Origin: Nannochloris sp. 'desiccata'
Lineage: Eukaryota > Chlorophyta > Trebouxiophyceae > Chlorellales > Chlorellaceae
Reading direction: 5' to 3'
NCBI GenBank assembly: GCA_019044685.2
Contig: JAGTXX020000008.1
Location: 372,001-436,000 of the forward strand
Length of the DNA: 64,000 nucleotides
A program made the position numbers and the translations under genes. Position 1 is the stretch's first letter. Each line of letters begins with the position of its first letter. A model generated the notes under the pieces. That model had not been told where the DNA came from, made no database searches, and was given only the letters and a program-made list of their open reading frames with translations. Shown one piece after another: positions 1,844 through 35,511 of this stretch.

Positions 1844-1924
1844 TTACAACAAGTTCAATGGCCTGCGTGTTGAGAGGCTATACGACCTTGAAAATTGGCA
1901 GTACGATGCGTCCAAGGTCAACAA

Positions 1925-2868
1925 CTCAGCAAGGGAGCTCTCTCCATAGTGGGCGACCAGCACGTGCTTTGCAAAGATCTGAAACTTGTCCAACAGAGGG
2001 TGGTTGCTCGCTGCAGCTTCCCACCCACCGTTTTCGAAGCCAGCGATGGCCCAGAATGCTTGAAGTCTAAACAGAGCGCAATAGGCACCGTATTCAAAGA
2101 CGTAGAAGGCCAAATTCTGCAGCAACAGTTGGATCATGTGCTCTCTTGACAGCAAGTAATCACGTGCACCTTCGTACTCTGCCGCCTGCTGAACGTATTT
2201 GCCTACCTGCTCTCTGAGCCGCACCATCCAGTCTGCCACAAAGAGCTTGTAGACATTCGGGCAGTACTGCAGAGGATCCACTGTAGAGTGAGGCACATTG
2301 TAGGCTTCTAAGGGAGCAAACCCAGCAGTAGCTTCCAGCGCAGGCAAAGCAGCAATGGAGGTTTTGGAGGCGTAGCTTCGCTGCATCTGGTCCCCGAGGC
2401 TCCACCCCATCAGGGTCGCTGTCTGGTACGATGATACATCTTCAGAGAGCAAGGTAGTGCAGAGTGAATTGCGACCAAGGTGACCAACAACCACCTTCCG
2501 CAGCTCTGCTTCCTTCAACAACGACCTCAGACTGCTGGTAATTTGGCCAATTTTCGCTTCCGTTGCCTTGCCTTTGGCCAGAAAACCATACTCCAGCCAC
2601 CCCAGAGGGTCTGCCTCGGCTGCAAGAGCAGGTTCTGACTCGCGGTAGACACCAGCAGCCTGTGCAGCAGCGACGGTGCCGTGCAGCATGCAAGCGATGT
2701 GTGCAAGGATATCCCGGCCATGAGCCCAGCCGTAGAGGTAGTTATAGCTGAGGTCAACGAACGCGAGGTGGCCATAGGTATCAAGCAGCGGATCTCTGTG
2801 TTGCAGCATGGCGAGGTCCCTCAGCATCGAGCCACTATCGTGCTTCAGCTGAGCATGAAGGGAAAAAC
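1925..2868 (-). pseudogene. Truncated tyrosine recombinase (YR-1 type)
   Basis: The minus strand encodes about 315 residues that are nearly identical to the middle of the recombinase at 19898-35511, including the HLGRNS motif, the MGW tryptophan and the QRSYASK tyrosine. The N-terminal half, including the first catalytic Arg, and the C-terminal third are missing. Homology begins sharply next to the end of R copy A (about 2890) and ends near 1925, where the frame runs into unrelated sequence and stops at 1844. With copy A it forms the order R then recombinase, as at 19-22 kb. It is a dead copy. Confidence 0.8.
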
Positions 2869-2894
2869 CGAGCAAACGGCAAGATAAAGAATGA

Positions 2895-3545
2895 CTTGCA
2901 TAACCGGTGATATAAAGACAAGTTAGCTAATATTAGTGTGCTTTGTGTTACATAAATATGAGTTCGATTACATATGAAGAGGTAGGGTCGATAGATGCGC
3001 TGAATGTTGGAATTTAACAAGTAGGCGGTGGCTGATGGTGGAGGACGGTGGAAAATGCCCTTTTATAAAACGAGAATAGAAAGCCAGTGTAGCTACGTGC
3101 TAGCAGGAGGATTTGATACGTACGGGTGTTCGATCAATAGATGAAAGTGTAGCACGGGTTTCTTGAGGTTCCTGCATCCAATGCTTCTAGTAGACAGGCT
3201 GGCAGCCACTGGTGTCAAGAGGGCGGCGGGAGCGGTGACGAGAAACAGGCTGGGTTTTCTCAAGGCAGCAGCGACTCAACCAAAAGGACAACGAGCGCAG
3301 CTGGATAGTCAACCAGCTGATGCAGACCCTTTCATAGTGTGGGTGCTGCCAATCAGGCGTGCAGACGCAGCAGATGATCAGGAAACGATCATCAACTTTG
3401 TGATCAACCCAGCATTGGTGGCGAGCAGGCTGCTGCAGCCTCTCGTAGATATATATTATACATTTTCTCTTTGCAGGAATTGCTCAGAATGGCGTTTAAA
3501 TGCCAGTTCCTTGGCCATCTTCCAGCCTTTCTCCCATCCTGAGGC
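2895..3545 (-). repeat. R repeat, copy A
   Basis: This is one of five copies of a ~0.6 kb dispersed repeat. Reading the minus strand, it begins at the stretch containing GGCGTTTAAA and TGCTCAGAA, passes GATCATCAAC and the CTCGCCACC block, and ends in TTTATGTAACAC and CTTTATATCAC. Copy A is the most diverged of the five. Direct copy B lies 2.6 kb to the right and the header-nuclease gene is between them. The small open frames inside R differ between copies and are probably not genes. A TATAAAG box lies at its outer end (2911-2917). Confidence 0.8.
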
Positions 3546-3621
3546 GCCTACTATAATTGTAGTTTTGTGGCCTTCACCTCCATTCTCGTTTCATATTATT
3601 CATTTACAGTATCCTGTAACC

Positions 3622-5051
3622 ATGGGGGATTTATTTTCCACGCCGTCCGCACCGTCCACGGCACGATTCTATGAGGGAATCACATTGCTTTTTGGCAATC
3701 CTAACAAGGAGTTCCCTCAAAATTTCGACCCAACGCGCCCTTTCAAGACAGAGCTGCTGAGAAGAGTTTCGCGAGCGAGCTTTGTCGACTCCGTGAACGG
3801 TAGAAATGGCCCTTCTCGAGTTGTTCTTCTTGAAGATCCTACAACGTTCAAGCTTGAGCTGGAATCGCCGCTGGAGGTCGAGCTTCGTAACAACGCGACC
3901 TATATTGTAGTTCATCCTACACCGCCCATACCGGAGTTCTACGAGGGCATTACGTTGCTGCGGGGCAATCCAGAGGAGGAATTTCCTCGGGATTTTGATC
4001 CTGCCCACCCGTTTGGGAAAGCATTGCTAAAAAAAGTATCCCGACAGGGCTTTGTTTCAAGAGTTAAAGATGAAGGTGCCGTAGCAGTAGTGCGTCTTGA
4101 AGATTTTCTTAAATATAGTTTAAGTCCTACAGCCTTCATTCTGAAGGACGAATCGCCGCTGGATGTCGAGCTTTGCGATAATGCAACGTTCATTTTAATT
4201 CACTCCGGAGAAAAAGGTTTAAGGAAGAGGGTAAGCACCTTTTTGTTATCTTTGGTAGTTTTCTTTTCAAATCTTCGCTGATCGTCGTTTGCTAAATTTC
4301 ACCTTTGTTTCTTTGATTTTACAGGTTGATGACATGGCGGCCTGGCAACGAAGTCATGCTGAGGCTGAGGAACGACATGTGGGGTCAGCACTCGTAAAAT
4401 TGCTCCAGAAAGATCATACCGACGTCGAGCCCTTTTCCTCCAAAAGCGTTTATGGTCCTGGTGGCAAATTTAAAGAAATCGACGCAGCAGCCATTAGTCC
4501 GGATTGTGCTATGGTAGCAGGGCACAAACATGTGATGAGTATGAAGGGCGTTGAGCAACTTCAGAGGGCCATTGCATTTATTTTGTGAGTCGTCGTTCCT
4601 GTGTAATTTTTTCACAATTTTTCACAATTCTGATCTCCTTTGTCTTTCTCATGCTTTCCCTTTTTCTTTTTGCAGGAAATACCGTGACCAGGACGAGGGG
4701 AATGTGTCCCTCTTTAGGGGCAAGCGCATCATTGGTGTTCTGGCCAGCGCACCTGAGGTCGGAGGAGAGAAGCAAGAATTCATGAACACCGTCATCGAAA
4801 GCCTGGGTTATAAAAGAATTTCCACGGATGGGCTCTACGGTGACGACCCTTGCAGCACTTTCCAGGCCTCAGGGGATTCATGTGATATTTCTTCGCCCTC
4901 AGATACTCCAGGCACCAGCCCCAACGCCCCACCATCTGCCGTGCCTCGTAGAGGCGGGCGCTCTTTCCTCGCCCCAATGCGAGGACCAGCCATGCTTGTA
5001 CGCCCTCGTTTGGTTAACAACAGGGTTACTGGATTTAGGCTTACTTTCTAA
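3622..5051 (+). CDS. Crinkler-like protein: two header domains plus PD-(D/E)XK-like domain
   Basis: Three exons (3622-4230, 4325-4584, 4676-5051) joined at GT-AG sites give 414 aa in frame. Residues about 12-97 and 103-197 are two copies of one domain, each starting FYEGITLL-x-GNP-x2-EFP and ending in a -VELRNNATYIVVHP-type strand. This resembles the ubiquitin-like header of Crinkler (CRN) proteins. Residues about 210-330 resemble the restriction-endonuclease fold of Crinkler-RHS proteins: an AEERHVGSALVKLLQKD helix, then EIDAAAISPDCAMVAGHKH. There the usual E-x-K is G-H-K, so the metal-binding Glu is lost. A Pro/Ser-rich tail with basic stretches follows. The gene lies between direct R copies A and B, opposite in strand to them. 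CRN proteins are known as host-directed effectors or conflict proteins; the role here is inferred. Confidence 0.65.
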
Positions 5052-5523: not shown

Positions 5524-6190
5524 AGGATATAAAGACAGCTCAGCTATCTATCTCAAGTGGGTTTTTTTTTTGTTACATAAAGACGATATCGGTAGCATAT
5601 GAAAGGATAGATTGATAGATGTGAGGGGCATCTGCCCTGAATGTTGGGATTCATTGCTTGGCAGTGGAGGGCGGTGAAAATGCCCATCTTCCTGTAAACG
5701 GGGGTAAAAGGGGGTAGCTGCGTCTGAGCAAGACAACTCGCTGCATACAGGCGGTGCAGCAATAAATGAAAGCCTTGGCGCTGATTACCGGAGGTTACTG
5801 CACCAAGTCGAGGTAGTAAGACAGCTTGGCAGCCACAAGGAGGCTGGAGGGCGGTGGAAGCGGCGGTGGAAACAAGTGGGATTTTCTTAAGGCAGCAGCG
5901 AGTCAGCCAAAAGGACAACAAGTGCAGCTCGCTTCTCAACCAGCTGATGCCGATGATTCGATATCATGGATGCTGCCTCTCAGGGGTGCAGACGCAGCGA
6001 GTGATCAGGAATCGCCTGAGCGATCATCAACTTTATGATCAACGCAGCATTGGTGGCGAGCAGGCTGCTGCAGCCTCTCGCAGATATCTGGTATTCGTTT
6101 CTCTTTGCAGGAATTGCTCAGAACGGCGTTTAAAGCCTTTCTCCCAGTCTTCTCCCAGCCTCACTTTCTCATCTCCCACGCAAAATAATG
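5524..6190 (-). repeat. R repeat, copy B
   Basis: This minus-strand copy of R is close in sequence to copies C-E over its whole length, from the GCTTTAAACGCCG block at the right to the ATCGTCTTTATGTAAC block and the TATAAAG box at 5528-5534 on the left. It lies immediately upstream of TMEM209, about 105 bp before its ATG. The sequence ATTTTGCGTGGGAGAT at its right edge (read on the minus strand) recurs near 13355, close to the other R cluster. Confidence 0.8.
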
Positions 6191-6296
6191 GCGCGCTCTC
6201 GGGTTTCAAATCAAGCGAATTGTCATTTTCAAGAGTCTTCTTCAAATAAAGAACAAATAACATAATATCGATGCTTACGCAATAGTTCCGGAGAAG

Positions 6297-13228: not shown

Positions 13229-13349
13229 TTTATCGATGACGTTGAGGCCTTGTAGTAGGAAAGGTAATCTCTAAAGCTTTAAATCATGTTGCACTAGTTT
13301 AAAATCCCACCAAGGGCCGCCTGAGGCGACGAGATTTCCGCATAGAATA

Positions 13350-14090: not shown

Positions 14091-14094
14091 GAGA

Positions 14095-14664
14095 AGGCTG
14101 GGAGAAAGGCTGGGCGATGGCTGGAAGATGGCATTTAAACGCCGTTCTGAGCAATTCCTGCAAAGAGAAATGTATACTAAATATCTGCGAGAGGCTGGAG
14201 CAGCCTGCTCGCCACCACCAATGCTGCGTTGATCATAAAGTTGATGATCGCTCAGGCGATTCCTGATCACTCGCTGCGTCTGCACCCCTGAGTGGCAGCA
14301 TCTACGATATCAAATCAACGACATGAGCTCGTTGAATATCCAGCTGCGCTCGTTCTCCTCTTGGCCGAGTCGCTGCTGCCTTGAGCAAATCCCACTTGTT
14401 TCTACCGCCGCTCCCGCCGCCCTCAAGCCACCAGTGGTTCCAAGCTATCTAAAGAGCGCCAGTTTTTTGGTAGACAAACCTCCGGCAATCAGCGCTGCGC
14501 TTTCATATACTGTTGCACCACCCATATGCAGCAAGTTGCCCTGCTCAGACGCAGCTACACTGGCTTTCTATCTCATTTTGGTGAGGAACGCATTTTCACC
14601 GCCAACTGAACATTCCTCGCCGGGGAGATAAAAACCCTGCCTCCTTCACGGACTATGCCATTAT
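14095..14664 (+). repeat. R repeat, copy C, with recombinase vestige
   Basis: A plus-strand copy of R, nearly identical to copy D 2468 bp away. It ends at 14615-14664 in a 50-bp piece that matches the start of exon 2 of the YR-1 recombinase (20109-20158) at about 43 of 50 positions. So the repeat appears to have once led into a recombinase gene here. The 3' end of NTPase copy 1 follows about 100 bp later, on the opposite strand. Confidence 0.8.
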
Positions 14665-14765
14665 ACACTTACATTCAAACAATTTAATCTGTAAAACAAA
14701 AAGTACAAGCAGAGAAAGGGGTAACAAATAGAGTAAAGGGAAAAACTAAAAACTAAAGCTTTTAT

Positions 14766-16559: not shown

Positions 16560-17132
16560 GTGGGGAGAAATCAAGAAAGCGAGGCCTCCCTAGAACTGGC
16601 ATTTAAACGCCCCTCTGAGCAATTCCTGCAAAGAGAAATGTATACTAAATATCTGCGAGAGGCTGGAGCAGCCTGCTCGCCACCACCAATGCTGCGTTGA
16701 TCATAAAGTTGATGATCGCTCAGGCGATTCCTGATCACTCGCTGCGTCTGCACCCCTGAGTGGCAGCATCTACGATATCAAATTATTGCCATCAGCTCGT
16801 TGAATATCCAGCTGCGCTCGTTCTCCTCTTGGCCGAGTCGCTGCTGCCATGAGCAAATCCCACGTGTTTCCACCGCCGCTCCCGCCGCCCTCAAGCCACC
16901 AGTGGTTCCAAGCTATCTAAAGAGCGCCAGTTTTTTGGTAGACAAACCTCCGGCAATCAGCGCTGCGCTTTCATATACTGTTGCACCACCCATATGCAGC
17001 AAGTTGCCCTGCTCAGACGCAGCTACACTGGCTTTCTATCTCATTTTGGTGAGGAACGCATTTTCACCGCCAACTGAATATTCCTCGCCGGGGAGATAAA
17101 AACCCTGCCTCCTTCACGGACTATGCCACTAT
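16560..17132 (+). repeat. R repeat, copy D, with recombinase vestige
   Basis: A plus-strand copy of R. It differs from copy C at few positions and also ends in the 50-bp vestige of recombinase exon 2 (17083-17132). It separates the two NTPase genes. Confidence 0.8.
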
Positions 17133-18894: not shown

Positions 18895-19064
18895 CTCCAG
18901 AGATGTTTGGATCGCAATATTTGGCCAAAGAGTCGGCGGGGAATCAGCAGAGGGAATCTCTACGAAGGTTTTCTACGGTTTTAATATTTCACAATGACAA
19001 ATTAATGTTAATTTATTTTGTGAATTCCGGATCGGAGGGATAATCAAGAAAGCGAGGCCCTATC

Positions 19065-19897: not shown

Positions 19898-22831
19898 ATG
19901 GAGCCTGCAACAACCACTGCTGATTTTGAATCCCAGCCCGGGGTCTTGCCCACAGCAACAGAATCCCAGCCAGACCTCTTTGTTTCGGTTGAAGAACCTT
20001 CTCAAGACCAGCCTGCTTCTAATGGACCCACGGGTAGGTTTAAATTCTCCCTTGTCAATGTTTTTCTGCTACTTTTAGCTGACCTTGTTGGTGTTGCTGC
20101 AGGGACGACGAGACCTCGCCGGGGTGATAAAACCCCTGCTTCTTTCGCGGACTACGCCTTTATCGAGCCTGTCAGGTCTCAAAAGAAGAAGAGAGGACGC
20201 CCTCGGAAGAAGCGTGTTGCAGAGGCCCAGCCTGCGCAGCAGCAGCAACAGGAGGAGGAGCATGACGACCTTTCTGCTCTTGCCATCCCTGGCCTCCCAG
20301 CTCTTCCTGACCTCGGCGGCGCTGTCCGTGAATTTATGTTGAGCGAGGGGCCGAAGTTGAGTATGGAAGACATCACGCGCCTCTCAGACCAAGCTGTGCT
20401 CGACTTGTTGGCCAAAATTCCCGCTGCCTTCCTCGTCAATCTCGACGCCGACCCCCAGCCCTCCCCCCCCCCAGCAGCTGGTCAACGCCAATTTGCTTGA
20501 TATTGGGGTGTATTCGCAGTACAATGACCTCACGCTGCCTCTCCATCGATACCTTGTAGATAGGGTATGTGCAGAGTGGTTTGACAAGCTCCGTTTTTCA
20601 ACGAAAACCAACTACTTGAATGCTATTCACAGAATCACCGGGGCTCACCAGCCTGCAGTGACCACGGCAGTGGTGCTGCCGTACGATAGCATTGCTGCTG
20701 CCATTGACTCGGTTATTCAATCTGAAGTCGATAATGAAAAGATGCAGCACCCCTCTGGCACGTTGCGTGTCTTTCAGTCGGCTCTGCCTCGCCTTATTGC
20801 CATCCAACTCTGTGTCCCGGCAGAGCAACGCCCCGTTGCAGATCCACACGCCAATATAAACATAAAATATGAAACGCTCCCTGATGTCGAAGCTAGATGC
20901 AATGGAGGGAATGCTTGGAAGCTGCTGGTAGAGAAGTGGAGGCGTTTTGCGCATCCAAAGAAACGCGTAGCTGCGGTGCAAAAGAATGCTCAAGCAAAGC
21001 TCATCACCGTCGCTGAAATTAAACAAGTCCAAGCCGTCGCATTGATGAGCCCCTTGCGAGAACTAGATGCCATATTGCTCTCTGTAGCTGGTCTGAGCTT
21101 CTTGATGTCGAGGGGTAATTGCAGCGAGATTCTTCCTCACTTGAAGTTCTTTGGAATGAAGCTGACTGCTCACCAAAAACACGACGGCACCACCCGCCGC
21201 TTACTCGGTTTTTCCCTTCATGCTCAGCTGAAGCACGATAGTGGCTCGATGCTGAGGGACCTCGCCATGCTGCAACACAGAGATCCGCTGCTTGATACCC
21301 ATGGCCACCTCGCGTTCGTTGACCTCAGCTATAACTACCTCTACGGCTGGGCTCATGGCCGGGATATCCTTGCACACATTTCTTGCATGCTGCACGGCAC
21401 CGTCGCTGCTGCACAGGCTGCTGGTGTCTACCGCGAGTCAGAACCTGCTCTTGCACCCGAGTCAGACCCTCTGGGGTGGCTGGAGTACGCTTTTCTGGCC
21501 AAGGGCAAGGCTACAGAAGTGAAAATCGGCCAAATTACCAGCAGTCTGAGGTCGTTGTTGAAGGAAGCAGAGCTGCGGAAGGTGGTTGTTGGTCACCTTG
21601 GTCGCAATTCACTCTGCACTACCTTGCTCTCTGAAGATGTATCATCGTACCAGACAGCGACCCTGATGGGATGGAATCTCAACGACCAGATGCAGCGAAG
21701 CTACGCCTCCAAAACCTCCATCGCTGCCTTGCCTGCGCTGGAAGCTGCTGCTGGTTTTGCCCAAGGAGAGGTCTATACTGTGCCTCGCACCAGAGTAGAC
21801 CCTCTGCAGCTCTGCCCGAATGTCTACCAGCTGTTTGTACAAGCTTGGATGGTGCGGCTCAGAGAGCAGGTAGGCAAATACGTTCAGCAGGCGGCAGAGT
21901 ACGAAGGTGCACGTGATTACTTGCTGGCAAGAGAGCACATGATCCAACTGTTGCTGCAGAATTTGGCCTTCTACGTCTTTGAATACGGTGCCTATTGCGC
22001 TCTGTTTAGACTTCAAGCATTCTGGGCCATCGCTGGCTTCGAAAACGGTGGGTGGGAAGCTGCAGCGAGCAACCACCCTCTGTTGGACAAGTTTCAGATC
22101 TTTGCAAAGCACGTGCTGGTCGCCCACTATGGAGAGAGCTCCCTTGCTGAGTTGTTGGCTGTGCAGAAGACCATGATGGAGGGCAATGCCTTTCCAGTGC
22201 CATGCCCTCTGTTGGCTTCAGAGCTCCCCTATGCCTCAGAAGACGCCAAGATGTGTGGTCAAGCGTTTGTGCGTGTTGTGAAAACTTCCTATGCTGAGGC
22301 CATCGACGAGTTGTTGAAAATGCCAAGCAGAGCCTCTCAATGCCACTCTGAGCAGGCCTCAGGCAGCAGCAGCGAGCAGATGCAGCTGGTAGGAGAGTTC
22401 AGGGAGGAAGTTATTAGATCCCAGAGGCAAGTAATCGAGTTGCAGCAGCTGCTCCTGCAGCAGCGAGCGGCGCCGTGGCCACCTCAGGCTTTGTATGGTG
22501 CGTTTCCCTATGATCAATGGCCTCCTGCTGCTTATGTGCCAACGCACTTCCTTGCGTTGGCAGCTCCTGTTCAAGACGTAGCCGCGCTTGGTGGCAATGG
22601 GCTCTCCCGTTTGCTAGTGAGCCTTGACAAGGTAGAAAGTTTTGCTGAGTTGCAAGCCCGGTGGCCTGTTGTGCAAAGGGCGCTGGCAAGCACTCCTTTG
22701 GATGCTGAAGCAAAAGAGCGAACAGGGAGAACTGTCAGCCTGTGGCAGCGCGTTTTCAATGGGGTCAGGAGGTGTTTCGATGGGTGGCCGGACGCTGATG
22801 TTAGTGGATTTATGGATGGGTTGCGTGCTGG
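19898..22831 (+). CDS. Tyrosine recombinase YR-1, 5' part (Crypton-like), split by retrotransposon
   Basis: Exon 1 (19898-20033) and exon 2 (from 20103) encode an N-terminal region with an AT-hook (KKRGRPRKKR), a poly-Gln/Glu stretch and a Pro-rich linker. The 69-nt intron is a multiple of three with no stop, so it may also be retained. At a run of ten C (20463-20472) the frame shifts by one base; beyond it, 784 codons are open. The recombinase residues are Arg in SRGNCSEIL (21111), His and Arg in HLGRNS (21593), Trp in MGW (21672) and Tyr in QRSYASK (21702), the R-HxxR-W-Y set of tyrosine recombinases such as Cryptons. The gene is interrupted at 22831 by the outer retrotransposon and resumes at 35286. 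Removing the insertion, and shortening the C run by one, gives about 1029 aa. Confidence 0.75.
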
Positions 22832-22963
22832 TGTTACGTGTATTTAGTAGCATTAGACCCTGGAGTGGCCCCTGCCCTCTCACACTATATAGCTAAGCTC
22901 CAATCCCCTGTTAGATAGTTGAATATATGTAATTATATATTATAATACGTATAACACTCAACA
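22832..22963 (+). repeat. Left LTR of outer retrotransposon
   Basis: 132 bp, TG...CA ends. The likely primer-binding site TTGGTTTCAGC follows at 22965-22975. A candidate TATA sequence lies at about 22892. Confidence 0.95.
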
Positions 22964-23639
22964 ATTGGTTTCAGCTTAATTAAAAAAACATAGACCTCCT
23001 CTAGAGGACCCCAAGAGTAAGCAACTTTCATCTAATTGTGGCGAAAGCCACACAGGGTGCACGGTGCTTTCGGAGGGCGATACTCTAGCTTACTTAGAGT
23101 GTACCTGACCCTCTGGAAGTGGGAGCATAGTAACTTGACGGAAAATCAGATCGTTTATCGCAGATGCATGTTATGGGCATGAAACATGTCGGAATGATCT
23201 CTGCTTAGCGCAAGCAGCTCGCTTACACCAGAATAATAGTTGCAAAATTATTCTCTACACGGTGGCAAGCACTGGGAGGATTTTCTCGTGTTTTGGTGTG
23301 AGGGCACTCCACGCATTGTCAATCAAGTTTTTTAAGTCAGAGTCTAACTGGCGGTTCTTCTTCTGTTATTCCCTTGCAGAGTTGGATACCGAGGTATAAG
23401 ACGTGAAGCAAGAGGAACAACTCGATTTCCTTTCTGTTTCAGACCTTGATTTACCTCCTCGCCCTGCCAACAGCAGTCTGATCCCCTGCTGCCTTGGCCT
23501 CGCACATCAATCTAGCAAACTCAAGTCACAACTCACCTAGGAGCTTCCAGCTCTTAGACCACACTGTTAGGTTGTGTTATAACTGCCTGTAGCAGCAAAA
23601 TACTTCCGCAGTCGCGCCGTCCCCTTTAGTCCACTCTCT
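22964..23639 (+). other. Leader of outer retrotransposon
   Basis: This untranslated stretch runs from the primer-binding site to gag. It contains short complementary words, such as GGCGAAAGCC near 23041, that could form stem-loops. No open frame of note. Confidence 0.6.
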
Positions 23640-24608
23640 ATGGCTACCGACAGTGAAATTCAAGTTCGATTTTTCCACACCAACCCGCTCGCTGCTGAAA
23701 ATCCTTTGTCGGAGGGTAGCACCCAGCCTTTAGGTCCACCATTCCCTGGAGCATCTTCGGTTCCCGTGTCTGAGCATGACTCCCCCGCTTATGCGGACCC
23801 CTGGGCTGACCCAGAATTGGGCAAGAAATTGAAAAGCATCAACATGCCTTTAAAATTCAGCGGCCAGCTTGAGCTGCAGCCGCCTTTGGCATGGAATCGC
23901 TGGGTCAACCAGTTGAGGTACGTGATGCGTAGTCGAGGCCTCACTACCACCTGGCAACAGTGCGTTGGCTTTGGTGAAGCGTTGGCAGGCCCTCCGTTGG
24001 ATCTCTTCCTTGCCGAAGTTCACGGTGCCGCTATCGTGCCCACTTTTGACGAATTTTTGTCCCGTCTGTCCAGCCAATACCTTCCTAGAACCAATCTTCA
24101 ACACTGGGTTATGGAAGCACTGGCAAATGCTAAATTACAGAGCGACGAATCGGTTCAACAGTACGTTCTTCGTCTTTGTGAGCTCTTCCGTCTTTCTTCC
24201 TCTCCCAAGAGCATTGAAGACCAGCACCTTGCCTTCCTTAAGGGTCTTCCCCCTTCCTTGCAAACTGCGTATTTGGATCGCCTGCAAGAACGCAGCGATG
24301 ATGGACTGCGAGATGAAGCGTTAGAGCCACTCCAAGGCAATTCTATAGTCAAATATCTGGACACTAAGAATCAACGCTACCTCCAAGACAAGCAGCGCAG
24401 GGCTGCAGCTGGTGGTCATAAACCCACCAGTCGTGTCAACGCAGCTACCGTAGCTGATCCAGCACGGGTTCAGGCTTGGCTTAAAACTAAATCTGAAAAA
24501 TTGAACATAGATCTCTCTCTCATCCAAGCTCGGTATGCCAAGAGAGAGTGCTTCAAATGTGGTAGTACTGACCACAAGTTACCTCAGTGCGGGAAGTCCC
24601 CAAACTGA
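23640..24608 (+). CDS. gag: Gag of outer retrotransposon
   Basis: 322 aa. The retrotransposon gag capsid-like helices occupy residues about 75-220 (NRWVNQLRYVMRSRG, QYVLRLCELFRLSS). The C-terminal zinc knuckle is CFKCGSTDHKLPQC. The stop TGA at 24606 directly follows a CCCAAAC heptamer. The protein packages the element RNA. It overlaps pol by about 38 nt in the -1 frame. Confidence 0.9.
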   Translation: MATDSEIQVRFFHTNPLAAENPLSEGSTQPLGPPFPGASSVPVSEHDSPAYADPWADPELGKKLKSINMPLKFSGQLELQPPLAWNRWVNQLRYVMRSRGLTTTWQQCVGFGEALAGPPLDLFLAEVHGAAIVPTFDEFLSRLSSQYLPRTNLQHWVMEALANAKLQSDESVQQYVLRLCELFRLSSSPKSIEDQHLAFLKGLPPSLQTAYLDRLQERSDDGLRDEALEPLQGNSIVKYLDTKNQRYLQDKQRRAAAGGHKPTSRVNAATVADPARVQAWLKTKSEKLNIDLSLIQARYAKRECFKCGSTDHKLPQCGKSPN

Positions 24609-27303
24609 GTGTCCCAGTAGTTTCTGTAATTGAAGGTGCTGGGGACCATTCTGTAAAGAATGATTGTTCCAGTGGTAATCCTGGAATTGGTCAGTCAATG
24701 AGTGATGACCAAACTAATGCATTAGAACGTTTAACCCATGATTGGGATCTTATTGAAGAAGCTATGTTAGAGCGTCTTCAGCAGCAGAAGGAATTTCCGC
24801 TTGGTGTTATTTTAGCTAGAATTCAATCTAGAAGAGATCTACAAGAAAGATCTAGTACATTGATGTATTTTACTGGCAAATTAGGTAGTTCTACCGTTAG
24901 ATTCTTTATTGATACTGGTGCTGAAGGCAGTTTCGTGTCTGAAGCACTGGTTCGTGCAAAACAGCTTCCGTTACAGCGTGGTAGAAGTTTAGTAGTTAGA
25001 GCTTTTGATGGCTCCAGGCACGAGTGTAAACAAGTGCTGGGGAACATTTCTCTTAGTATTAGTGAATATCGTGGTACTCATAGCTTTGTGGTTGCTCCGC
25101 TTTCTGGTTTTGATGTCATTCTTGGTATGGACTGGGTGGATCAGTTTACCGACGTTACGTTCATGCCTAAGCAGCAACAAGTCCAACTGTCTACTGCTGA
25201 TGGAATGGAATTACTCTTGTATTCAGATAAGGCTCCTGCACCGTCGTTCCCTCTGTGCAGCATGGCTACTTATGAACGCGACCTTAGACTGAATCAAGTT
25301 CAAGATGTTTTTGTCGTAGCGGTGCAATGGAAAACTGATCCCCTGTCGGACTCTCCTATATTGGACGTCTCCATTCCAGATCATTTTGATGAAGAAACTA
25401 GAACTAAATGGAAACAAATGAAGAAAGATCTGAACCTGGTACTGGATGATTTTCGAGATCTGATCCTTAAAGGCTATTTGGTGGAAATGCCGCCCGATCG
25501 TGAAAAAGACGGTGGTAATTTTACTATCAAATTGAAGCCTGGTGCTGAACCTCCTAACCAACCTCCTCGTCGTCTGGGCCTGCATCTTCAACCTGAATTA
25601 GAAAAACAGCTCAAAGACTTACTGGCCAGAGGTTATATCCAGCACAGCAATTCTGAATTTGGAGCCCCGGTGCTGTTTGTTAAAAAGAAAGATGGCACTT
25701 GGCGGCTCTGCGTTGATTATCGCGAATTGAATGATCTCACAGTCAAATTGAAGTATCCTTTACCTAGAACGGATGATCTTCTAGATTCCATAGAAGGCGC
25801 TACTGTGTTCAGCAGTTTAGATGCTGTGCAAGGTTACCACCAGTGCCGCGTCAGAGTCGATGACGTACCGAAAACAGCTTTTCGGACCCAATATGGTCAC
25901 TACGAGTATCTCGTGCTTCCTTTTGGACTTACCAATGCTCCTGCGCATTTTCAGAAGTATATGCATCATATATTTCGGGAAGCCAACCTGCTGGGAGTGA
26001 CTGTACTGGTCTACTTAGACGATATTTTAATTTTTAGTAAAAACCTTGAAGAGCATGCGCAGCATGTTAGGGCTGTGCTGGAGGTGCTTCACAAGAATAA
26101 AATACAGTTGGCACCTCATAAGTGTCGCTTTGGTTTAGCTGAGGTGGAATTTCTGGGTCATTTGGTGTCTGCTAATGGTATTAGACCTGATCCTAAGAAG
26201 GTTGCCGCGATTGCCGAATGGACCGCTCCCACCAATGTTAGTGAGTTGAAGTCGTTTACTGGTGCTGTAAATTTTCATAGAAGGCATATTGAACACTGTG
26301 CGTCTATTATGGCACCTTTGAACAAGTTAACAAAGAAAGAAACACCTTATATCTGGGGAACCGAACAGCAGGCAGCATTTGATGATTTAAAACAGGCTCT
26401 CATCAGCGCTCCCGTATTGCGACCTCCCAAATTTGGTGGTATGTTTCATTTATACACCGATGCCAGTGGTGTTGGCATGGGTGGTGCGTTGTATCAAGAC
26501 TTTGATGATGGCAGGCATCCTATTGCTTTCTGGAGCAGCTGCTATACCCCTGCACAGCTAAATTACGGCGTGCCCGAGCAAGAGCTGTGTGCTGTCATCC
26601 TTGCCTTGAAATATTTTGAACATTATCTGAAGAATGCTCAGGTGACTGTGTTATCTGACCACATGGGTCTGTCTACTTTCCTTACAAAAAAAGGGATTAA
26701 AGAAACTCGCAGACACATGCGCTGGAAAGATTTTCTGGCTGAATTTGATATCCAGATCAAACACATCGCTGGCAGAGATAATGTTGTTGCTGATGCTTTA
26801 AGCAGAAGAGGGTGGCTCGAGCAGCTGCAAGTTAATACAATAAATGTTGGTGGTAGTGATGCTGATAATAAACTTCTGGATGGCTGGTCAGCAGCATGCA
26901 ATTCTGATCCAGCAATTAAAAATCTGCTAGAAAAGTTTGCTGCCGGGACCTTGTCAAAGAAGAGATTCGCGATGCCTGATGATAAATTGTATCGTCTTTA
27001 TGGTTCACAGTGGTGTTTGGTTGTACCTCATAGTAAAGTTCACGCCTTACTTCATGAATTTCACGACTCACCTACTGCTGGTCACATGGGTGTTGAGCGC
27101 ACTGAAGTGTCGGTGCGTCGTCACTACTGGTGGCCTACGTTGCATGCTGATGTAGTGAAATACATCACTCATTGTCCGCACTGCCAACGTAATAAACCAG
27201 ATAATCAAGCCATGTATGGTAAGATGGTACCAGTACAGGTACCCAAACTACCTTGGCTGGCTGTGAATATTGACTTCTTTGATATGCCGCCGGACGAGGC
27301 CGG
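24571..27303 (+). CDS. pol: Pol of outer retrotransposon, part 1
   Basis: The frame is open from 24571. Aspartic protease: FFIDTGAEGSFVSEAL. Reverse transcriptase: [13 protein letters not shown] and YLDDILIFS. RNase H: LYTDASGVGMGGALY and DHMGLSTFL. Integrase zinc finger: H-x3-4-H (HEFHDS...GHMG) and CPHCQ. The first catalytic Asp lies in VNIDFF. The frame is cut at 27303 by the inner element; in the empty site it continues at 33812 with no loss of frame. The extra residues after 27303 are read from the inner LTR and are not native. Confidence 0.92.
24599..24605 (+). promoter_or_regulatory. Putative -1 ribosomal frameshift site (gag-pol, outer)
   Basis: C CCA AAC in the gag reading frame fits the X XXY YYZ rule and lies directly before the gag TGA. 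The -1 frame is open from 24571 into pol. The same heptamer survives in the gag relic at 886-892. Confidence 0.75.
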
Positions 27304-27662
27304 TGTAGCACTTTGCGCCTTATTTTGCCTTTTTCTATTTTGGTCTCTTTTCTTTCTTCCGTCGCTCTGGACAGCTATTCTCTGCCAGACTCAGTCTGAC
27401 ACAGTCACTCTCGTTATGGCTGCGTGCCCTATAACGTTATAGCTTGAGAAGCTACATACTCAATTCCTAAATAGCTCTCCATCGCTCTTTTCCACATTCT
27501 TAATTATGATTAACTCTTGATTCGTGTAACCAGGTACACCTGATACTCCTAGATACCCTATAGACCTCTAAGACAGTGTAGTTGTGACTCCACTGTGCGC
27601 ATTCGATCGAACATCTTGTTCCTAAGAACTTAGCCTTTCACCCAGTTAGGCATAGTTCTACA
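27304..27662 (+). repeat. Left LTR of inner retrotransposon
   Basis: 359 bp. The probable primer-binding site TTGGTTCTCAGC follows at 27663-27674, similar to that of the outer element. Confidence 0.95.
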
Positions 27663-28160
27663 TTGGTTCTCAGCTTTTGAAACGGGATACGTAAGTTGCA
27701 CCTTCTGATTCTCACTTGGCAAGTGAGCGTGCACCTCATCTGATTCGCATCCCGCGTTCTTCGACCTCTTGATTTTGGGCCCCACTCCTCTGCGTGGCCT
27801 TTTGATCTGTTTGATAGCCCTATATAAGCTTGACTTTGGCGAAAGTCCGCTCATAGGCTTCTCACAGGTGTGTTTTTGAGACTTGGCGAGTCGACACACC
27901 CCCGGCGTACGCGTTTCTGAAATTTTTCTTTGGCGGCTCTTGACCCCGGTTCCTGATATCTTGGTCCAGGTATCTCTGAAGATATTATCTGATTAAGATC
28001 TAGTGAAGCATCCACCACCACAGTACTGAATCCTCATCCGTGACTACCGAGGTAGCTGCTATCAGCGAGAAGTACTGTACTGTCCACGGCTGATCTAGGT
28101 ATTAGTCATTTAGTACTTCAAGTGGTCCGGTATTAGTCCTATTCCACTGTACTATAGTGT
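27663..28160 (+). other. Leader of inner retrotransposon
   Basis: No gene. From about 28050 the sequence is rich in TAGTAC and GTACTAG-like words (28069-28190), which could form local hairpins or bind a factor. Confidence 0.5.
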
Positions 28161-28622
28161 ATGGCATCTAGTACTACACTAGTACATCAAGACTTGGTTA
28201 AAGAGGTAAAGAAAGAGAAGCGTAAAGAGAAGTTCAAACAGAAGAAGAAGAAGAAGGTCATTGCTGATACTCGTAAGCGTACTACGTGGCAATACAACAA
28301 GAGTAAAAGAAGTTCACAACTGAAGAAGTACCTTGACGCGAAAGCTAACGTAGAGGCTAAAGTTAAAGGTACTTACGGGAAGTTTACTTACATAGGGGGA
28401 TTGAAACAAGTGCCACTAGACGGCATTCCAGCTGATCTCAAGAACCCTAGTAAGTACAAGTGGGTACTAACTAGTACAGCTTGTTCTCAAGCACGTGAAG
28501 AAGAACAAAGCTTCTTAAAGTACTGGAATCCTAGACGTGTTGACGAAGCACGGTGGTCCCTTTGGGAAGAAGAAAATAAATTAAAGGTTCTTCCCGACGG
28601 CAGGGTCATATATTTTAATTGA
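28161..28622 (+). CDS. Lysine-rich ORF upstream of gag in inner retrotransposon
   Basis: 153 aa. Residues 10-45 are very rich in Lys and Arg (KKEKRKEKFKQKKKKK), then a KRSSQLKKYLDAKANVEAKV coiled segment and a compact C-terminal half with KYKWVLTSTAC and a WSLWEEENKLKVLPDGRVIY end. It lies on the coding strand, 24 nt before the gag ATG. The C-terminal half could be a small nucleic-acid-binding fold. I do not recognise it, and such an ORF is not standard in Ty3/gypsy elements. Confidence 0.6.
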   Translation: MASSTTLVHQDLVKEVKKEKRKEKFKQKKKKKVIADTRKRTTWQYNKSKRSSQLKKYLDAKANVEAKVKGTYGKFTYIGGLKQVPLDGIPADLKNPSKYKWVLTSTACSQAREEEQSFLKYWNPRRVDEARWSLWEEENKLKVLPDGRVIYFN

Positions 28623-28646
28623 AATTCGTATTGCTCGTACGACAAG

Positions 28647-29534
28647 ATGAACGCCGAAGAAGCTGCTCAGTTGATGCAGCAAGTACAGTTCTTGACTGCT
28701 CAACTCAATGAGTTACAGCAACAACCACCAAACGTGCAACAACCACCTGCTGCACAGCGTATCAAGCCCCGCAAGCCCAATGACTTTACCGGGGATAGTA
28801 AAGCTTTGCAAGATTGGTTGTACGCTGTATCCTTGTACTGTCATTCTATTGGTATTACTGATGATATGCTGAAGGTGCAAACTGCCTTGCCCTACCTTCA
28901 AGGTGCTGCCAAGACTTGGTTGCGTCGTGTCTACCCTGTTGATGAGTGGGCTAACGCTCCTTGGGGGACTTGGCAAGATTTTTGTACGGCTTTGCGTGGT
29001 GCTTTTGGTCCCTTGGAGGAACATCTTCAAGCACGGGAACGCCTTGACAACTTACGTCAGAGGCGTACTCAATCTGTGATTGATTACATTAGAGAGTACC
29101 GTATTATTATGCTTGAATTGCCTGAAGTTACTCAGGATGAAATTGTGCATCGCTTCCGGAAAACCTTGTACTGGGACAAGGTTAAGGACTATATTACCCA
29201 AGCTACGGCCAATAGGGTTCGTACAACTCTTCAATTTGACGAGATTGCTACTTTGGCTACTCTTGGTGAATTAGAATTGGTACCTGCTGGACAACGTGGC
29301 AGAGGCAATTACTCTGGCCAACACTGGCAGTCCCGCCAGCCGGCTTCTCTTGCTCCTGCTCCGCGTCCTGTGGCTATGGATATAGGTAGTATTGATTCTC
29401 GTCCCTCTGGTTCTTATGATCGTGACGCCTTGCGTCGTGAAGGTCGTTGTTTCTACTGCAAAGAACGTGGTCATCGTAAAAATCAGTGTCCCGAGCTTAC
29501 TAAGAAGCAGGGAAACGCGAGACACCGACAGTAA
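28647..29534 (+). CDS. gag: Gag of inner retrotransposon
   Basis: 295 aa. A short Gln-rich coiled-coil start is followed by the gag capsid domain ([37 protein letters not shown]) and one zinc knuckle, [14 protein letters not shown]. The stop TAA is at 29532. It differs strongly from the outer gag. Confidence 0.92.
29510..29516 (+). promoter_or_regulatory. Putative -1 ribosomal frameshift site (gag-pol, inner)
   Basis: G GGA AAC in the gag frame fits X XXY YYZ. It lies 15 nt before the gag stop, within the short gag-pol overlap (about 29503-29534). Confidence 0.75.
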
Positions 29535-32500
29535 GCGGAGTCTTTATTGCCGGTGAATCTGTTGATGATGATGTTGATGACTCCTCCACCCTTGATTCGG
29601 GCCCAGCTCCCGCCTGCGACCCTCGATATATTCTCGCAGTGCGCTCCGAGACTGAGCTGCAGGTCCTCCGTGGAAGTGTCAATGGCCAGGTCGTCACTAT
29701 CCTTATAGATAGTGGTGCTGCTGGTAATTTTATTTCTCAAGACTTTGTTGAAACATTTGGAATTACTACGAAAAAGAAAGATCCTCAGAACTGGACTCAA
29801 GCCCTGATGGCTGATGGTACCGCTTATGATTTGGACAAGTTTGTTCACCGTGCCACGATTAAAATCCAGAATTACAGAGATTCGGTATCTCTGGATGTAG
29901 TGCCTTTAGATTCGGCTTATCATATGATATTAGGACAACCATGGCTGAGTAAAATTAATCCTAGTATTGATTTCTCCGAGAAAACAATAACTTTTACTCA
30001 CCGCCGTCGTCGCCACTTTTGGCAATGTCCGCGACCAGACCGACCCACTACATTGAAGCCCTTGAGTGCTGTACAACTCAATAGAGTTCTTCGTAAGCGC
30101 CCCTCTGCTAAAGTATATGCTTGCTATGTACGGCAAACTGATGACGGTGTCGAAAGTGAAGTTAAAGAAACCACCGCCGCGGGCGCTCGAAAGATGGCGA
30201 AGGATATTATGAAAGATTATGAAGATGTTTTCCCTGATAACTTGCCTCCTGGTCTGCCTCCTGAACGATCTGTAGATCATCGTATTGAACTTGAACCTGG
30301 TGCTCAACCCACTTCCCGCCCAGACTATAAAAAGAGTCTGCCTGAATACGATGAAATGCAGCGACAGATCAACGAAATGTTGGAAAATGGTGAGATACAG
30401 CCTAGTGTGTCTCCCTATGGATCTCCTGTGCTGTTTGTCAAGAAGCAAGATGGCTCCTTACGTATGTGTATTGACTACAGAGCCCTGAACAAACAGACTG
30501 TGAAGAATAGGTATCCGCTCCCTCGTATTGAAGAAATGTTGGATCGCCTTGGTAAGGCCAAGTACTTTACCAAGCTTGATCTGAGATCCGGCTACTATCA
30601 AATACGAGTAGCTAAAGAAGATATCTACAAGACTGCATTTAGTACCAGATATGGTCACTATGAGTTTTTAGTGATGCCATTCGGTCTGACGAACGCTCCC
30701 GCCACCTTCCAGACCTTGATGAATGACATCTTCCGCACTAGTTTGGACAAATTCATTATGGTATACTTAGATGATATCCTTATCTTTAGTGATACTCTTG
30801 AGGATCATGAAAAGCACGTTCGCCACGCGCTTGACGTCCTCCGACAGAATAAGCTGTATTGCAAGGCCTCTAAGTGTGAATTTTTCCAAACTGAAGTGTC
30901 CTTCCTTGGGCATGTGATTAATGGTGATGGTGTTAAAGCTGACCCTCGTAAAGTTCAAGCTGTTGCTGACTGGCCTCAACCTAAAACAGTCCGGCAAGTC
31001 CGCTCTTTTCTCGGTCTAGCTAATTATTACCGTCGCTATGTTCATGGTTTCGCCACCATGGCTGCCCCTCTTACCTTGCTTACTAAGAAGAATGTCCCTT
31101 TTCTCTGGACTACCAAGCAAACTCAAGCGTTAGAAGCCTTGAAGACTGCCTTGTCCACCGCTCCTGTGTTGAAAAATCCTGAATTTGGCAAGCCTTTTGT
31201 GATTACTACGGACGCTTCTGAGTTCGCTGTTGGTGCTGTGCTTAGTCAATCTACGCCTGAAGGTGAACGTCCTGTTGCCTTCATTTCTCAAACTCTGAGT
31301 GATACTGAACGTCGTTGGCCTACTCATGATCGCGAACTTCATGCTATTGTCTGTGCTCTCAAACGCTGGCGACACTATGTCGAAGGCGTGCCGATCACTG
31401 TTCTTACTGATCATAATTCCTTGAAGTACTTCATGGAACAAAAAGAACTGTCTAAGAGACAAGTACGATGGCTTGAAACTCTATTAGAGTACGGTAATGA
31501 CTTGCTCATCAAGTATCTCCCTGGTAAAGCTAATGTTGTAGCTGATGCTTTGAGTCGACGCGCTGATTTTGAACTGCCCCCTGTGTCTGACACTGTGCTG
31601 CCACAGCTGCTTCGTGTGCAAGGTATTCGTGTTAATAGTGTTCGTGTGAATTCTATTGTACATTTTGAACCTAACCAAGGTTGGTTAGCTGAATTGAAGG
31701 ATGCTTTGGTTAAAGATCCTTTGTACAAGAAAGTTGTCGCTCCCGCTCCCGTTAGTAACCGTCGTCGTCGCCGCTCTCTTGCTCCTCCTCCATCTGTCTT
31801 GGATTTTGAATACTCAGTTCAAAATGATTTAATTTATGCTCACTCGAAGGGAAGAAAGAAATTGTTCGTTCCATTCAAGAAGTTGCAAGCTAAAGTTTTA
31901 GCTGCAAATCACGATCATGTGACTGCTGGTCACGTGGGCATGGATAAAACTACTGAACTGGTTTCTCGACATTACTACTGGCGTGGAATTGCACAAACTG
32001 TACAACGTTATGTGAAATCTTGCCTTCTTTGTCAGCGAATGAAATCGAACAACCAAAAGCCTGCTGGCTTGTTGCAACCGCTGCCGGTTCCTGATCATAA
32101 TTGGGAACATGTCTCATTGGATTTGATTGGTCCTTTGCCTACCACTCTCAATGGTTTTGACTGCATTGTTACTGTAGTTGATAAGCTTTCTAAAATGGGT
32201 CATTTCATTGCTACCACTACCACTGTTGATGCTCCTAGTCTTGCTAAACTCATGATGAGTAATATCTTTAGGCTCCATGGTTTCCCAAAAGCCTTGATCA
32301 GTGATCGCGATGCTCGCTTCACCAGTGAGTATTGGAAACAATTTATTGATGCTTTAGGTATTGCTTCTCACATGTCTACTGCTTTCCACCCCGAAACTGA
32401 TGGCCAGACTGAGCGAATGAATAGGACCATTGAAGAGATGCTCCGCTCTTACGTCAACGATAAGCATGATAACTGGGATGAATTGTTACCTTATCTGGAA

Positions 32501-33271
32501 TTGGCTTATAATAATTCTCGTCAAGCTTCGCATAAGTTTACTCCGTACTTCTTGAATCATGGTACTCATCCTTTTGTCCCTGGTGCTGCTCTCAATCCTA
32601 CTTCTGCTGCTGCTGTCAATCCTGATACCTTGGCTCACACTGTCGCTACTGCTTTAACTGAAGCTAAACAACATTTGGAGCGCGCTCGTGAACGTCAGCG
32701 TGAATATGCAAATAAATCTAGAAGGCATGTTGAGTTTAAAGTTGGAGATCGTGTTTACCTGTCTACAGAAAATTTGAAGCTGCCCGGTCCTTCTCGCAAG
32801 CTGCAAGAAAGACGTATTGGTCCCTTCACGATTTCTAAAGTGCTGTCTCCCGTTACGTATAAACTTACACTCCCTAATGAGATGCAAATTCATGCTACCT
32901 TCCATGTCAAACTCTTACATCCCTTTGTAGAGTCTCCTGAAGAATTTGGTGAACGCGTTACTGTGGAACTGCCACCGATTGGTTATGCACGTGGTGATGG
33001 AATCTACCTTGTCGATTATGTATTTGGTCGTAAATGGGATACTATTGTTGGTAAATCTCGCCCTGAATGGTTTTATCATGTAGCTTGGCTTGGTTACTCT
33101 CTTGAAGAAGCTACTTGGGAACCCCGCCGCCAACTACTCGGCATTAAAGATTTAATTGATGAATATGATGCTGCACACCCACTCAAACGTGGAGAAGCTA
33201 CGCTACCACCTTGGCCTACTGTTAATTCTAAAAAGAAGAAGAATATCAAGGAACCTACTAAAAAGAAGTAA
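29516..33271 (+). CDS. pol: Pol of inner retrotransposon
   Basis: Reached by -1 frameshift; about 1250 aa. An acidic linker (VDDDVDDSS) precedes the protease [14 protein letters not shown]. Reverse transcriptase: [13 protein letters not shown] and YLDDILIFS. RNase [17 protein letters not shown]. Integrase: the H-H-C-C finger ends CLLCQ; catalytic residues lie in [22 protein letters not shown] and [19 protein letters not shown] (D, D, E). The C-terminal chromodomain is [19 protein letters not shown], which in chromoviruses guides integration to modified chromatin. All domains look intact, so the element could be active. Confidence 0.95.
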
Positions 33272-33447
33272 TTTTATTGTCTATGTGATTTTTTTTTTTT
33301 TTTCCCTGGTTAAGAAATTTTCAGATTTGTCTATTTATATTTTCATTTTGCTGACTGTCTTTTGTTTTGCTTTCCCCTTGATTCCTTTGTCTGCTTACAT
33401 TGTTCTGAGCCAGCGAGGACGTGGCTCTTTTCTTAAGGAGGGGATAA
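33272..33447 (+). other. 3' region and polypurine tract of inner retrotransposon
   Basis: A T run lies near 33288-33303. The polypurine tract AAGGAGGGGA is at about 33435-33444, just before the right LTR. Confidence 0.7.
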
Positions 33448-33806
33448 TGTAGCACTTTGCGCCTTATTTTGCCTTTTTCTATTTTGGTCTCTTTTCTTTC
33501 TTCCGTCGCTCTGGACAGCTATTCTCTGCCAGACTCAGTCTGACACAGTCACTCTCGTTATGGCTGCGTGCCCTATAACGTTATAGCTTGAGAAGCTACA
33601 TACTCAATTCCTAAATAGCTCTCCATCGCTCTTTTCCACATTCTTAATTATGATTAACTCTTGATTCGTGTAACCAGGTACACCTGATACTCCTAGATAC
33701 CCTATAGACCTCTAAGACAGTGTAGTTGTGACTCCACTGTGCGCATTCGATCGAACATCTTGTTCCTAAGAACTTAGCCTTTCACCCAGTTAGGCATAGT
33801 TCTACA
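33448..33806 (+). repeat. Right LTR of inner retrotransposon
   Basis: 359 bp, matching the left LTR, followed by target duplication GCCGG (33807-33811). Confidence 0.95.
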
Positions 33807-33811
33807 GCCGG

Positions 33812-34982
33812 GATGGATTACGCGTTAAGCGTTACTGATCGTATGTCTAAAATGGTTCATATCTTGCCCTGTATGAAATCTATCACTGGAGAAGGTACTG
33901 CTCGTCTCTTTTACGATGGTGTATTTAAGTATCATGGTATGCCTAAATCTATTGTTTCTGACCGTGATTCAAGGTTTACATCAGCGTTTTGGCAAGAATT
34001 AATGAAAATTTTAGGTACTGATTTGCTGATGTCCACTGCTATGCACCCTCAAACTGATGGTCTAGCAGAGCGTAGTCACCGTACTATTAAAGAAACCCTG
34101 ACTAACTGGACTGCTGCTAATCCCAGCAACTGGTCTCAACATATTTCTTCAGTCGAATTTGCTATCAACAACTCCAAGCAAGGTGCTACTGGTCAAACTC
34201 CTTTCTTTCTTAATCATGGTCTGCACCCTCATACTCCTGCTTCCTTATTGGCTGATTCAGTTTTGCCCGCTTCTTTATCTCCTCATGCTGATGATTATCT
34301 CAAGAAATTAAAGACAGCCTGGAAGTGTGCTCATCAATGTGTCTTAGCAGCCCAAGAAACCATGAAGAAGCGAGCCGACCGCCACCGCCGACCGAGTCCG
34401 TTTAAAGTTGGTGATAAAGTTTTAGTATCTTATAAAGTTTTAAAGATGCCTGATGTGACAGCAAGGAAGCTGCAGCATCGGTATTTTGGTCCTTACCCTG
34501 TCACGCAGCTGTGTGGTGAGAATGCAGTTGTGGTGGAGCTGAGTGCCGGAAGAACAAGGTCTTTTAATGTTTCTAATCTTAAGCCTTGGAAGGAAGATCC
34601 AGACACCTTCCCTGGCCGTGATTACTCTCAACCTGGTCCTGTAGAAGTTATTGGTGATGAAGAATATTTTACAATAGACAGATTCATCAAGAATAGGTGG
34701 GTGAGAAGTGGTCGTGGTTATAAAGAACAGTTTTTGGTGCATTGGGAAAATTACCCGCCAGAAGACGTATCTTGGCTTCCAGTACAGCAGCTTGAATCAG
34801 AGATGGAAAAGGATAGTTTTACCGAATTATTGAAAACATTACAGACAAGAAAGCCTAGACCTGCGCTTAAGCCTAAAAGGAAAATTAATAATAATAGCCA
34901 GCAGCAGCAGGCAGCGCCTCGTACTCAGCGGCAACAGCAGCAGCAAGAGCCTACTCGAGTTAGGACTAGGGCACAGCGATAG
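33812..34982 (+). CDS. pol: Pol of outer retrotransposon, part 2
   Basis: Continues the integrase core directly after the insertion: SVTDRMSKMVHI, then catalytic SIVSDRDSRFTSAFW and HPQTDGLAERSHRTIKETL. A GPY-type segment (LQHRYFGPYPVTQL) is followed by a chromodomain, EQFLVHWENYPPEDVSWLP, and a basic, Gln-rich tail. The frame fits part 1 exactly when the inner element and one copy of GCCGG are removed. Confidence 0.93.
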
Positions 34983-35148
34983 TAACTTTCTTAGATTGAT
35001 TATGGGTTGTTACACCTTACGTAATTCTTTGTCTTGCTTTGTGTACTCTACAAGTGATTAACGATGGGGCTATCAGAGTGTTCCCGACTTGTAGTACAGT
35101 TTTGATCCTTTTGCAAAAAGTGTGTTTTTGGTATAAAGAAGGGGAGAA
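34983..35148 (+). other. 3' region and polypurine tract of outer retrotransposon
   Basis: The polypurine tract AAGAAGGGGAGAA (about 35136-35148) abuts the right LTR. Confidence 0.7.
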
Positions 35149-35280
35149 TGTTACGTGTATTTAGTAGCATTAGACCCTGGAGTGGCCCCTGCCCTCTCAC
35201 ACTATATAGCTAAGCTCCAATCCCCTGTTAGATAGTTGAATATATGTAATTATATATTATAATACGTATAACACTCAACA
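35149..35280 (+). repeat. Right LTR of outer retrotransposon
   Basis: 132 bp, matching the left LTR at 22832-22963, followed by target duplication GCTGG (35281-35285). Confidence 0.95.
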
Positions 35281-35285
35281 GCTGG

Positions 35286-35511
35286 CTACCGCCCGGCAAA
35301 TAGAAAGGGAGCGATGCCAATCAAACGATTCTTGGAGGGTGTTGGGTATGCATTGCGTGATAGTGAGGCTGGGAAAGGCGTTAGAGCGACCTTTATCGGC
35401 GGAGAAAGCAGCCAGTGCGGCACCAATGCAGAGTTTGAAGCTGTTTTTGTGCAGGCGGTGGCCAGCTTTGCTTCCGGGAAAGGGTTGCCGGTGCCTATGT
35501 TTGGTGAATAA
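35286..35511 (+). CDS. Tyrosine recombinase YR-1, 3' end
   Basis: The last ~75 residues of YR-1, displaced by the retrotransposon. The codon split at 22831 is completed here, and the frame then runs KRFLEGVGYALRDS, FIGGESSQCGTNAEFEAVF and ends MFGE with TAA at 35509. This tail is also missing from the truncated copy at 1925-2868. The GVGYAL and F-IGGESSQCGTNAE segments have no function I recognise. Confidence 0.8.

Follow-up and report, generated by a model that had tools for sequence, protein, structure and literature searches.

A recurring modular arrangement of repeats, exchangeable antisense genes and putative tyrosine recombinase genes in a green alga

Two loci in the window

The stretch of DNA analysed here (the window; 64,000 nt, C8:372001-436000, C8 and similar labels denoting contigs) belongs to a genome of 21.55 Mb in 18 contigs, and close protein matches carry the name Nannochloris sp. 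'desiccata', a green alga. Two loci in the window contain copies of a repeat, R, placed on either side of a gene of the opposite strand (the cargo) and followed by YR-1, a putative tyrosine recombinase (YR) gene; the outer R copy is designated R'. The features are as follows, with window coordinates.

1635..1937 (C8:373635-373937), plus strand: remnant of a primase/SF3-helicase gene, locus 1, 52% amino-acid identity, tail-to-tail with the YR-1 fragment
1919..2880, minus strand: YR-1 fragment, locus 1, 95% identical to 21196-22157
3076..3508, minus strand: R(A), putative element end and leader between cargo and YR-1, locus 1
3622..5051, plus strand: header-nuclease-like cargo gene P0065, 414 aa, locus 1, in three matched pieces
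5714..6190, minus strand: R(B), outer R' of locus 1, terminus ATTATTTTGCGTGGGAG
14107..14660, plus strand: R(C), outer R' of locus 2; its right edge holds a piece of ~50 bp of YR exon 2
14769..16429, minus strand: NTPase copy 1 (AAA/ATPase_2), cargo, locus 2
16597..17128, plus strand: R(D), locus 2, built like R(C)
17234..18894, minus strand: NTPase copy 2, P0014, 465 aa, cargo, locus 2
about 19040..19700, plus strand: R(E), putative left end and leader of YR-1, locus 2
19898..35511, plus strand: YR-1 gene, main copy, locus 2, ATG at 19898
22832-35280: outer Gypsy-type LTR retrotransposon inserted in YR-1, with a 5-bp duplication (GCTGG) in a by-eye reading
27304-33747: inner Gypsy-type LTR retrotransposon nested in the outer one, with no difference between its LTR ends over 300 bp or more
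35721..36089, minus strand: ankyrin-repeat gene between YR-1 and the helicase remnant, locus 2
36530..37066, minus strand: remnant of a primase/SF3-helicase gene, locus 2

The initial annotation claimed that both loci share one plan, and this is borne out: the window contains five R copies along with two YR-1 stretches, its cargo comprises one header-nuclease gene and two NTPase genes, and the strand relations at both loci are as first described, with the cargo antisense and with R and YR in the same sense. The two NTPase cassettes are a tandem duplication with a period of ~2468 bp. The main YR-1 gene is broken at 22832 by the nested LTR retrotransposons, picks up at ~35281 and ends at 35511. 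Elsewhere in the window, a gene for a protein with RAMA and JAB domains lies at 49879-51909.

The assignment of YR as a putative tyrosine recombinase is based on its motifs and on Pfam scores below the cut-off (YR-1, E 0.067-0.07, 13.3-13.4 vs 27.1 bits). A second subfamily, YR-2, is ~67% identical to YR-1; Pfam gives no YR match for the YR-2 protein P0002, the AlphaFold model of YR-2 has a pLDDT of 35, and with the YR alignment as query the PDB yielded no match at E up to 10. An exon search of the genome found many YR fragments, with 5 of 30 matches covering most of the protein. The motif R..HLGRN..Y, whose R..HxxR..Y residues we take to be catalytic, is retained in the copies covering it except YR-3, in which Arg replaces the His, and the window YR-1, in which Cys replaces the first Arg. 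Because the other 10 of the 11 matches covering this first site (one of them YR-3) have Arg, the window YR-1 is probably inactive, in addition to being interrupted. YR-3 (C10:274k, ~28% identity) was considered as a member of the plan and rejected: it lies upstream of an NTPase gene on the same strand and is not divergent from it.

Recurrence of the plan and the left edge of R

The complete order R'-cargo-R-YR occurs at eight loci and in two YR subfamilies.

Window locus 1: header-nuclease gene as cargo
Window locus 2, C8:348-357k and C10:49-55k: two NTPase genes per locus; C10 has an incomplete outermost R'
C11:965-969k: coiled-coil gene
C8:500-508k and C9:915-922k, YR-2 subfamily: diverged NTPase gene
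C3:371-378k, YR-2 subfamily: another coiled-coil gene

A genome search with R gave at least 42 matches (40 of 75 candidates scored), spread over 12 contigs. Sixty copies of R and of R2, the leader of YR-2, were hand-picked from the searches, small overlapping rows being dropped, and 43 of the 60 were read, which together with two further fragments make 45 tabulated copies longer than 150 bp. R copies with unrelated flanks show a sharp left edge at ~ATTATTTTGCGTGGGAGATGAG, and 11 of 43 R matches, including two likely duplicate pairs, begin within 8 bp of each other (query positions 58-65). R2 copies with unrelated flanks start at ~ATTATTTC..GAAGGGGA, and R2' matches the leader over its first ~289 bp at three places (C8, C9 and C11) and over ~324 bp at C3. 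We read R from these edges as the left-end sequence of a YR element plus the leader between two divergent genes. No right end of the element is definable from the loci compared; 'GAATA', suggested as the 3' terminus of YR-2 by C8, C3 and C11, was dropped since the sequence common to C8 and the window continues past it. At C11:1267180, and in this copy only, the R terminus contains a perfect inverted repeat (ATTTTGCGTGG / CCACGCAAAAT, 8 bp apart), a geometry like that described for tyrosine-recombinase sites in PMC3212892; an EF-hand-like gene (by eye) with a transit-peptide-like start is head-to-head with R at C11:1267k.

The orientation of R to its neighbours, expected from the initial annotation to be fixed, is kept at many of the copies read across the genome. 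Among the 43 copies with at least 1.5 kb of right flank, a same-sense YR lies downstream in 29, five of which have solely the ~50-bp piece of YR exon 2 that is part of R'; no same-sense YR is present in 14/43, and an opposite-sense YR lies to the right in 2/43. The antisense cargo (an NTPase, header-nuclease or coiled-coil gene) lies upstream of 21 of the 41 copies with at least 1.5 kb of left flank, and no antisense cargo is recognised upstream of the other 20; same-sense cargo occurs in 6/41, four of these lying in palindromes that also have antisense cargo. To the right of R, the cargo is antisense in 16/43 and same-sense in 1/43. Two palindromes, at C2:560-563k and C3:645-649k, consist of two divergent R copies flanking cargo pieces, and an ankyrin-like match (40%) occupies the cargo position of the R copy at C12:517775-519439.

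We also counted from the side of the cargo, using 64 NTPase-family loci (hand-picked from 123 exon matches) and 25 header-nuclease loci (hand-picked from 64 matches). Within 6 kb of an R or R2 copy lie 22 of the 64 and 11 of the 25, respectively; zones of this size cover ~3-4% of the genome, and ~2 and ~1 loci are expected in them, so the association of cargo with R is beyond chance. The NTPase loci near R are antisense to it in 19 cases and same-sense in three. Twenty loci have a C-terminal NTPase exon at least 69% identical over at least 140 residues; 16 of them are near R, and all 16 are antisense. Match positions also reveal tandem NTPase arrays at C10:84-96k (period ~3.4 kb) and C10:254-272k (~5.7 kb).

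Cargo within the unit and its exchange between recombinase lineages

The YR-2 units at C8 and C9 lie on different contigs. Starting at the R2' terminus and running through the NTPase gene to YR-2, they match in two blocks (91.6% and 94.3%, with ~380 bp between them unaligned), while their left outer flanks differ, so the cargo lies within the unit and has been dispersed together with YR-2. The junction between cargo and R is identical within one cargo family at several loci. In a tree of seven R2 sequences, the R' copies of C8 and C9 pair with each other and so do their R copies (0.98, 0.95), and at C3, where the same chassis carries a coiled-coil gene, R' groups with its own R (0.95), consistent with either a separate duplication or a conversion.

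The relationships of YR differ from those of the cargo. The unit at C8:352k is 91.6% identical to the window in its NTPase and 78.8% in its YR, and this YR is 88.6% identical to that at C2, which carries a header-nuclease gene. The YR beside the header-nuclease gene at C4 is 90.4% identical to the C3 YR with a coiled-coil gene and 73.1% identical to the C2 YR with a header-nuclease gene. FastTree groups the C4 YR with the C3 YR (local support 0.996) and places the C2 YR in a clade with the YR of the NTPase unit at C8:350k (local support 1.0); two YR lineages that stand far apart thus carry header-nuclease genes. Cargo types are intermixed in a tree of 30 R copies, many nodes of which are weak. 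Mosaic copies were seen in five comparisons, where the better match passes from the cargo partner to the YR partner within R or close to it; in three of the five the cargo partner is without the 5' part of YR, and two are clean of deletions (C4 vs C2 and C3; C8:352k vs the window and C2). Because the cargo and YR trees disagree and the mosaics switch partner around R, we read the cargo as having been exchanged between YR lineages, by whichever enzyme, the mosaics and the tree conflict being the strongest evidence.

The recurring modular plan, the sharp end and the exchange of cargo agree with the initial annotation in its proposal of a YR mobile unit with cargo between direct R copies. Serial collection of genes fares worse: the three multi-cassette arrays read beside a YR (the window, C8:352-357k and C10:50-55k) hold NTPase genes only, and because each array holds one cargo family, tandem duplication fits better than serial capture. 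The reading that we prefer, and consider rather probable, is a family of integrative YR elements with the order R'-antisense accessory gene-R-YR, whose cargo is swapped between elements via R. The left part of such an element would be R', the antisense accessory gene, R and the sense YR, and the right part, where retained, a primase/SF3-helicase gene that is oriented towards YR. The YR protein would move the whole unit, a circular form integrating at the R terminus; cargo would be swapped when R copies belonging to different elements recombine, most likely by the ordinary homologous route, and unequal crossing-over between direct R copies would produce the tandem cassettes.

An alternative that we judge unlikely is a nuclear eukaryotic counterpart of integrons, in which YR excises and inserts single-gene R'-cargo cassettes beside its own gene, recombining circular cassettes into the R terminus, with R resembling an attachment site. 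The topology is integron-like, a recombinase divergent from a cassette array with one repeat per cassette, and the cassettes R'-CC2 (C14, C7) and R'-NTPase have shared junctions specific to the cargo. The R' at C3 and those at C8 and C9 may be separate duplications, R copies stand end to end at C1, and the partner switches around R are compatible with such capture. Against this stand the NTPase-only arrays and the fraction of YR exon matches (5/30) that cover most of the protein; at C10:20-27k a header-nuclease and an NTPase gene do flank one R', but the header gene is wrongly oriented. If this alternative were true, nuclease-like, NTPase and coiled-coil genes would be shuffled among virus-like elements of the alga.

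It is improbable that the genes are instead targets and not cargo, with YR elements inserting in one orientation immediately before host genes of particular families. The sharp left terminus of R before a gene would suit this, and so would outer R copies that abut ordinary-looking host genes (by eye), for example at C1 and C14. Such insertion is hard to reconcile with a cargo-R junction that is constant within a cargo family at several loci, with C8 and C9 units that share cargo and R' and diverge beyond R', and with a further direct-orientation R beyond the cargo at eight loci. The possibility that an old gene cluster multiplied by segmental duplication and unequal crossing-over, R being a shared divergent promoter and nothing mobile, would explain the ~2468-bp tandem repeats, the palindromes at C2 and C3 and the abundant YR fragments, but we hold it to be very improbable given R on 12 contigs with a fixed terminus and unrelated flanks, and a unit that contains recombinase-like and primase-helicase genes.

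The helicase side and comparison with known systems

Five loci have helicase matches (six in all), placed beyond the 3' end of YR and in antisense to it. At C8, YR-2 stands tail-to-tail with a helicase-like ORF whose length is 871 codons or more; the ORF matches DUF5906 (1.5e-12), a PHROG DNA primase (6.5e-13) and a primase in the PDB (1.5e-10). Beyond it lie a histone-fold ORF and a smaller, second recombinase-like gene (Pfam Phage_integrase, E 0.0092, below the cut-off), which has one relative, at C9 (40%). The C9 helicase match is 39% identical and lies ~10 kb from YR-2, beyond a retroelement-like ORF (by eye). Since the helicase and second integrase of C9 are 39-40% identical to those of C8 and YR-2 is about 95% identical, the right part may not be carried along with the left one. 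At the C11 helicase locus, the 3' end of YR and one R copy are seen, and the exon search gave no match to the body of YR. DNA comparison found no helicase in the 3.3 kb beyond YR-2 at C3 or in the 5.5 kb beyond YR-1 at C8:348k. The only close paralog (82%) of the window ankyrin gene is beside a YR 3' end at C11:1260597. Two loci have an ankyrin gene placed between the YR and helicase genes, and there is no other close copy.

The gene content of the right part suggests that an element retaining it is virus-like, integrative and degraded. Among the ORFs of C8:499.2-514.4k, looked over by eye, no gene for capsid or packaging was noticed; scans of viral contigs, which can detect only close relatives, yielded none for the NTPase, YR-2, the second integrase or the helicase, and a phage tblastn with YR-2 gave no relative. 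Coiled-coil-like genes (by eye) flank the C8 virus-like element on both outer sides. Polinton-like viruses and virophages resemble the algal elements in having a primase-type SF3 helicase, a tyrosine recombinase and integration in algal genomes, as described in PMC4642659. In polinton-like viruses the SF3 helicase is often fused to TVpol, and here the matches are to primases, the polymerase part being judged from motifs; the algal C8 element differs in the lack of a noticed capsid or packaging gene.

The system is real and modular, and is a variant of eukaryotic YR elements that is new beside the known ones. Among literature titles, none was recognised as describing these elements, and no paper with both Nannochloris and tyrosine recombinase was found. 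Cryptons are YR DNA transposons with a presumed circular intermediate according to PMC3212892. The algal elements are like them in having a putative YR gene, in the absence of a transposase and in that no long terminal inverted repeat was seen, but differ in the antisense cargo, which can be exchanged and is framed by direct copies of the element's end, and, at some loci, in a primase-helicase gene on the far side. Cryptons have direct repeats of 4-6 bp at both termini; in the algal elements a left terminus is defined and no right end was found. Starships likewise combine a YR with variable cargo, and their whole-element and captain trees are described as disagreeing (PMC12134995). The Starship captain domain DUF3435 (PF11917) gave no match to YR-1 (E up to 0.1) or to the YR-2 protein P0002 (E up to 1), and the host is an alga and not one of the Pezizomycotina. 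The algal slot holds a single gene, upstream and divergent, and whereas Starships are giant, the C8 element measures ~7 kb from R' through YR-2 and ~10 kb once the helicase gene is included.

In bacterial and archaeal integrons the recombinase gene is divergent from an array whose units each consist of a gene and a repeat. This layout, with one site per cassette, is seen in the alga, here in a eukaryotic nuclear genome; no clear mixed array was found among the R copies read (43/60). A slot with a swappable gene between two copies of an end sequence is somewhat comparable to the gene-cassette slot of bacteria. The 45 R/R2 copies in one 21-Mb genome, from which partner exchange and switch points can be read directly, make this a compact and countable eukaryotic system for the gain and swap of cargo by YR elements, a question studied mainly in giant fungal elements.

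The cargo genes recall Crinkler (CRN/CR) proteins (compare PMC6131194) in two respects, a header with a weak likeness to the ubiquitin-like fold and the AAA/ATPase_2 NTPase family. They differ in that header and NTPase are separate genes, in that the nuclease domain is putative, the C-terminal part of the protein having a low-confidence structure model where Crinkler effectors have an REase or other toxin domain, and in the algal host; Pfam gives no match for the header-nuclease proteins P0065 and P0080. Nine stop-free C-terminal NTPase exons have a median dN/dS of 0.36, with none of 35 pairs above 1, and these exons look to be under purifying selection; diversifying selection was not seen in this set, from which exons with stops were excluded. 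The NTPase, header-nuclease and coiled-coil genes may be conflict or defence genes, in which case the slot may be a trade route between the alga and its mobile elements. Residues 1-50 of P0014, an Arg/Ser/Pro-rich start of the NTPase, resemble an organelle transit peptide by eye.
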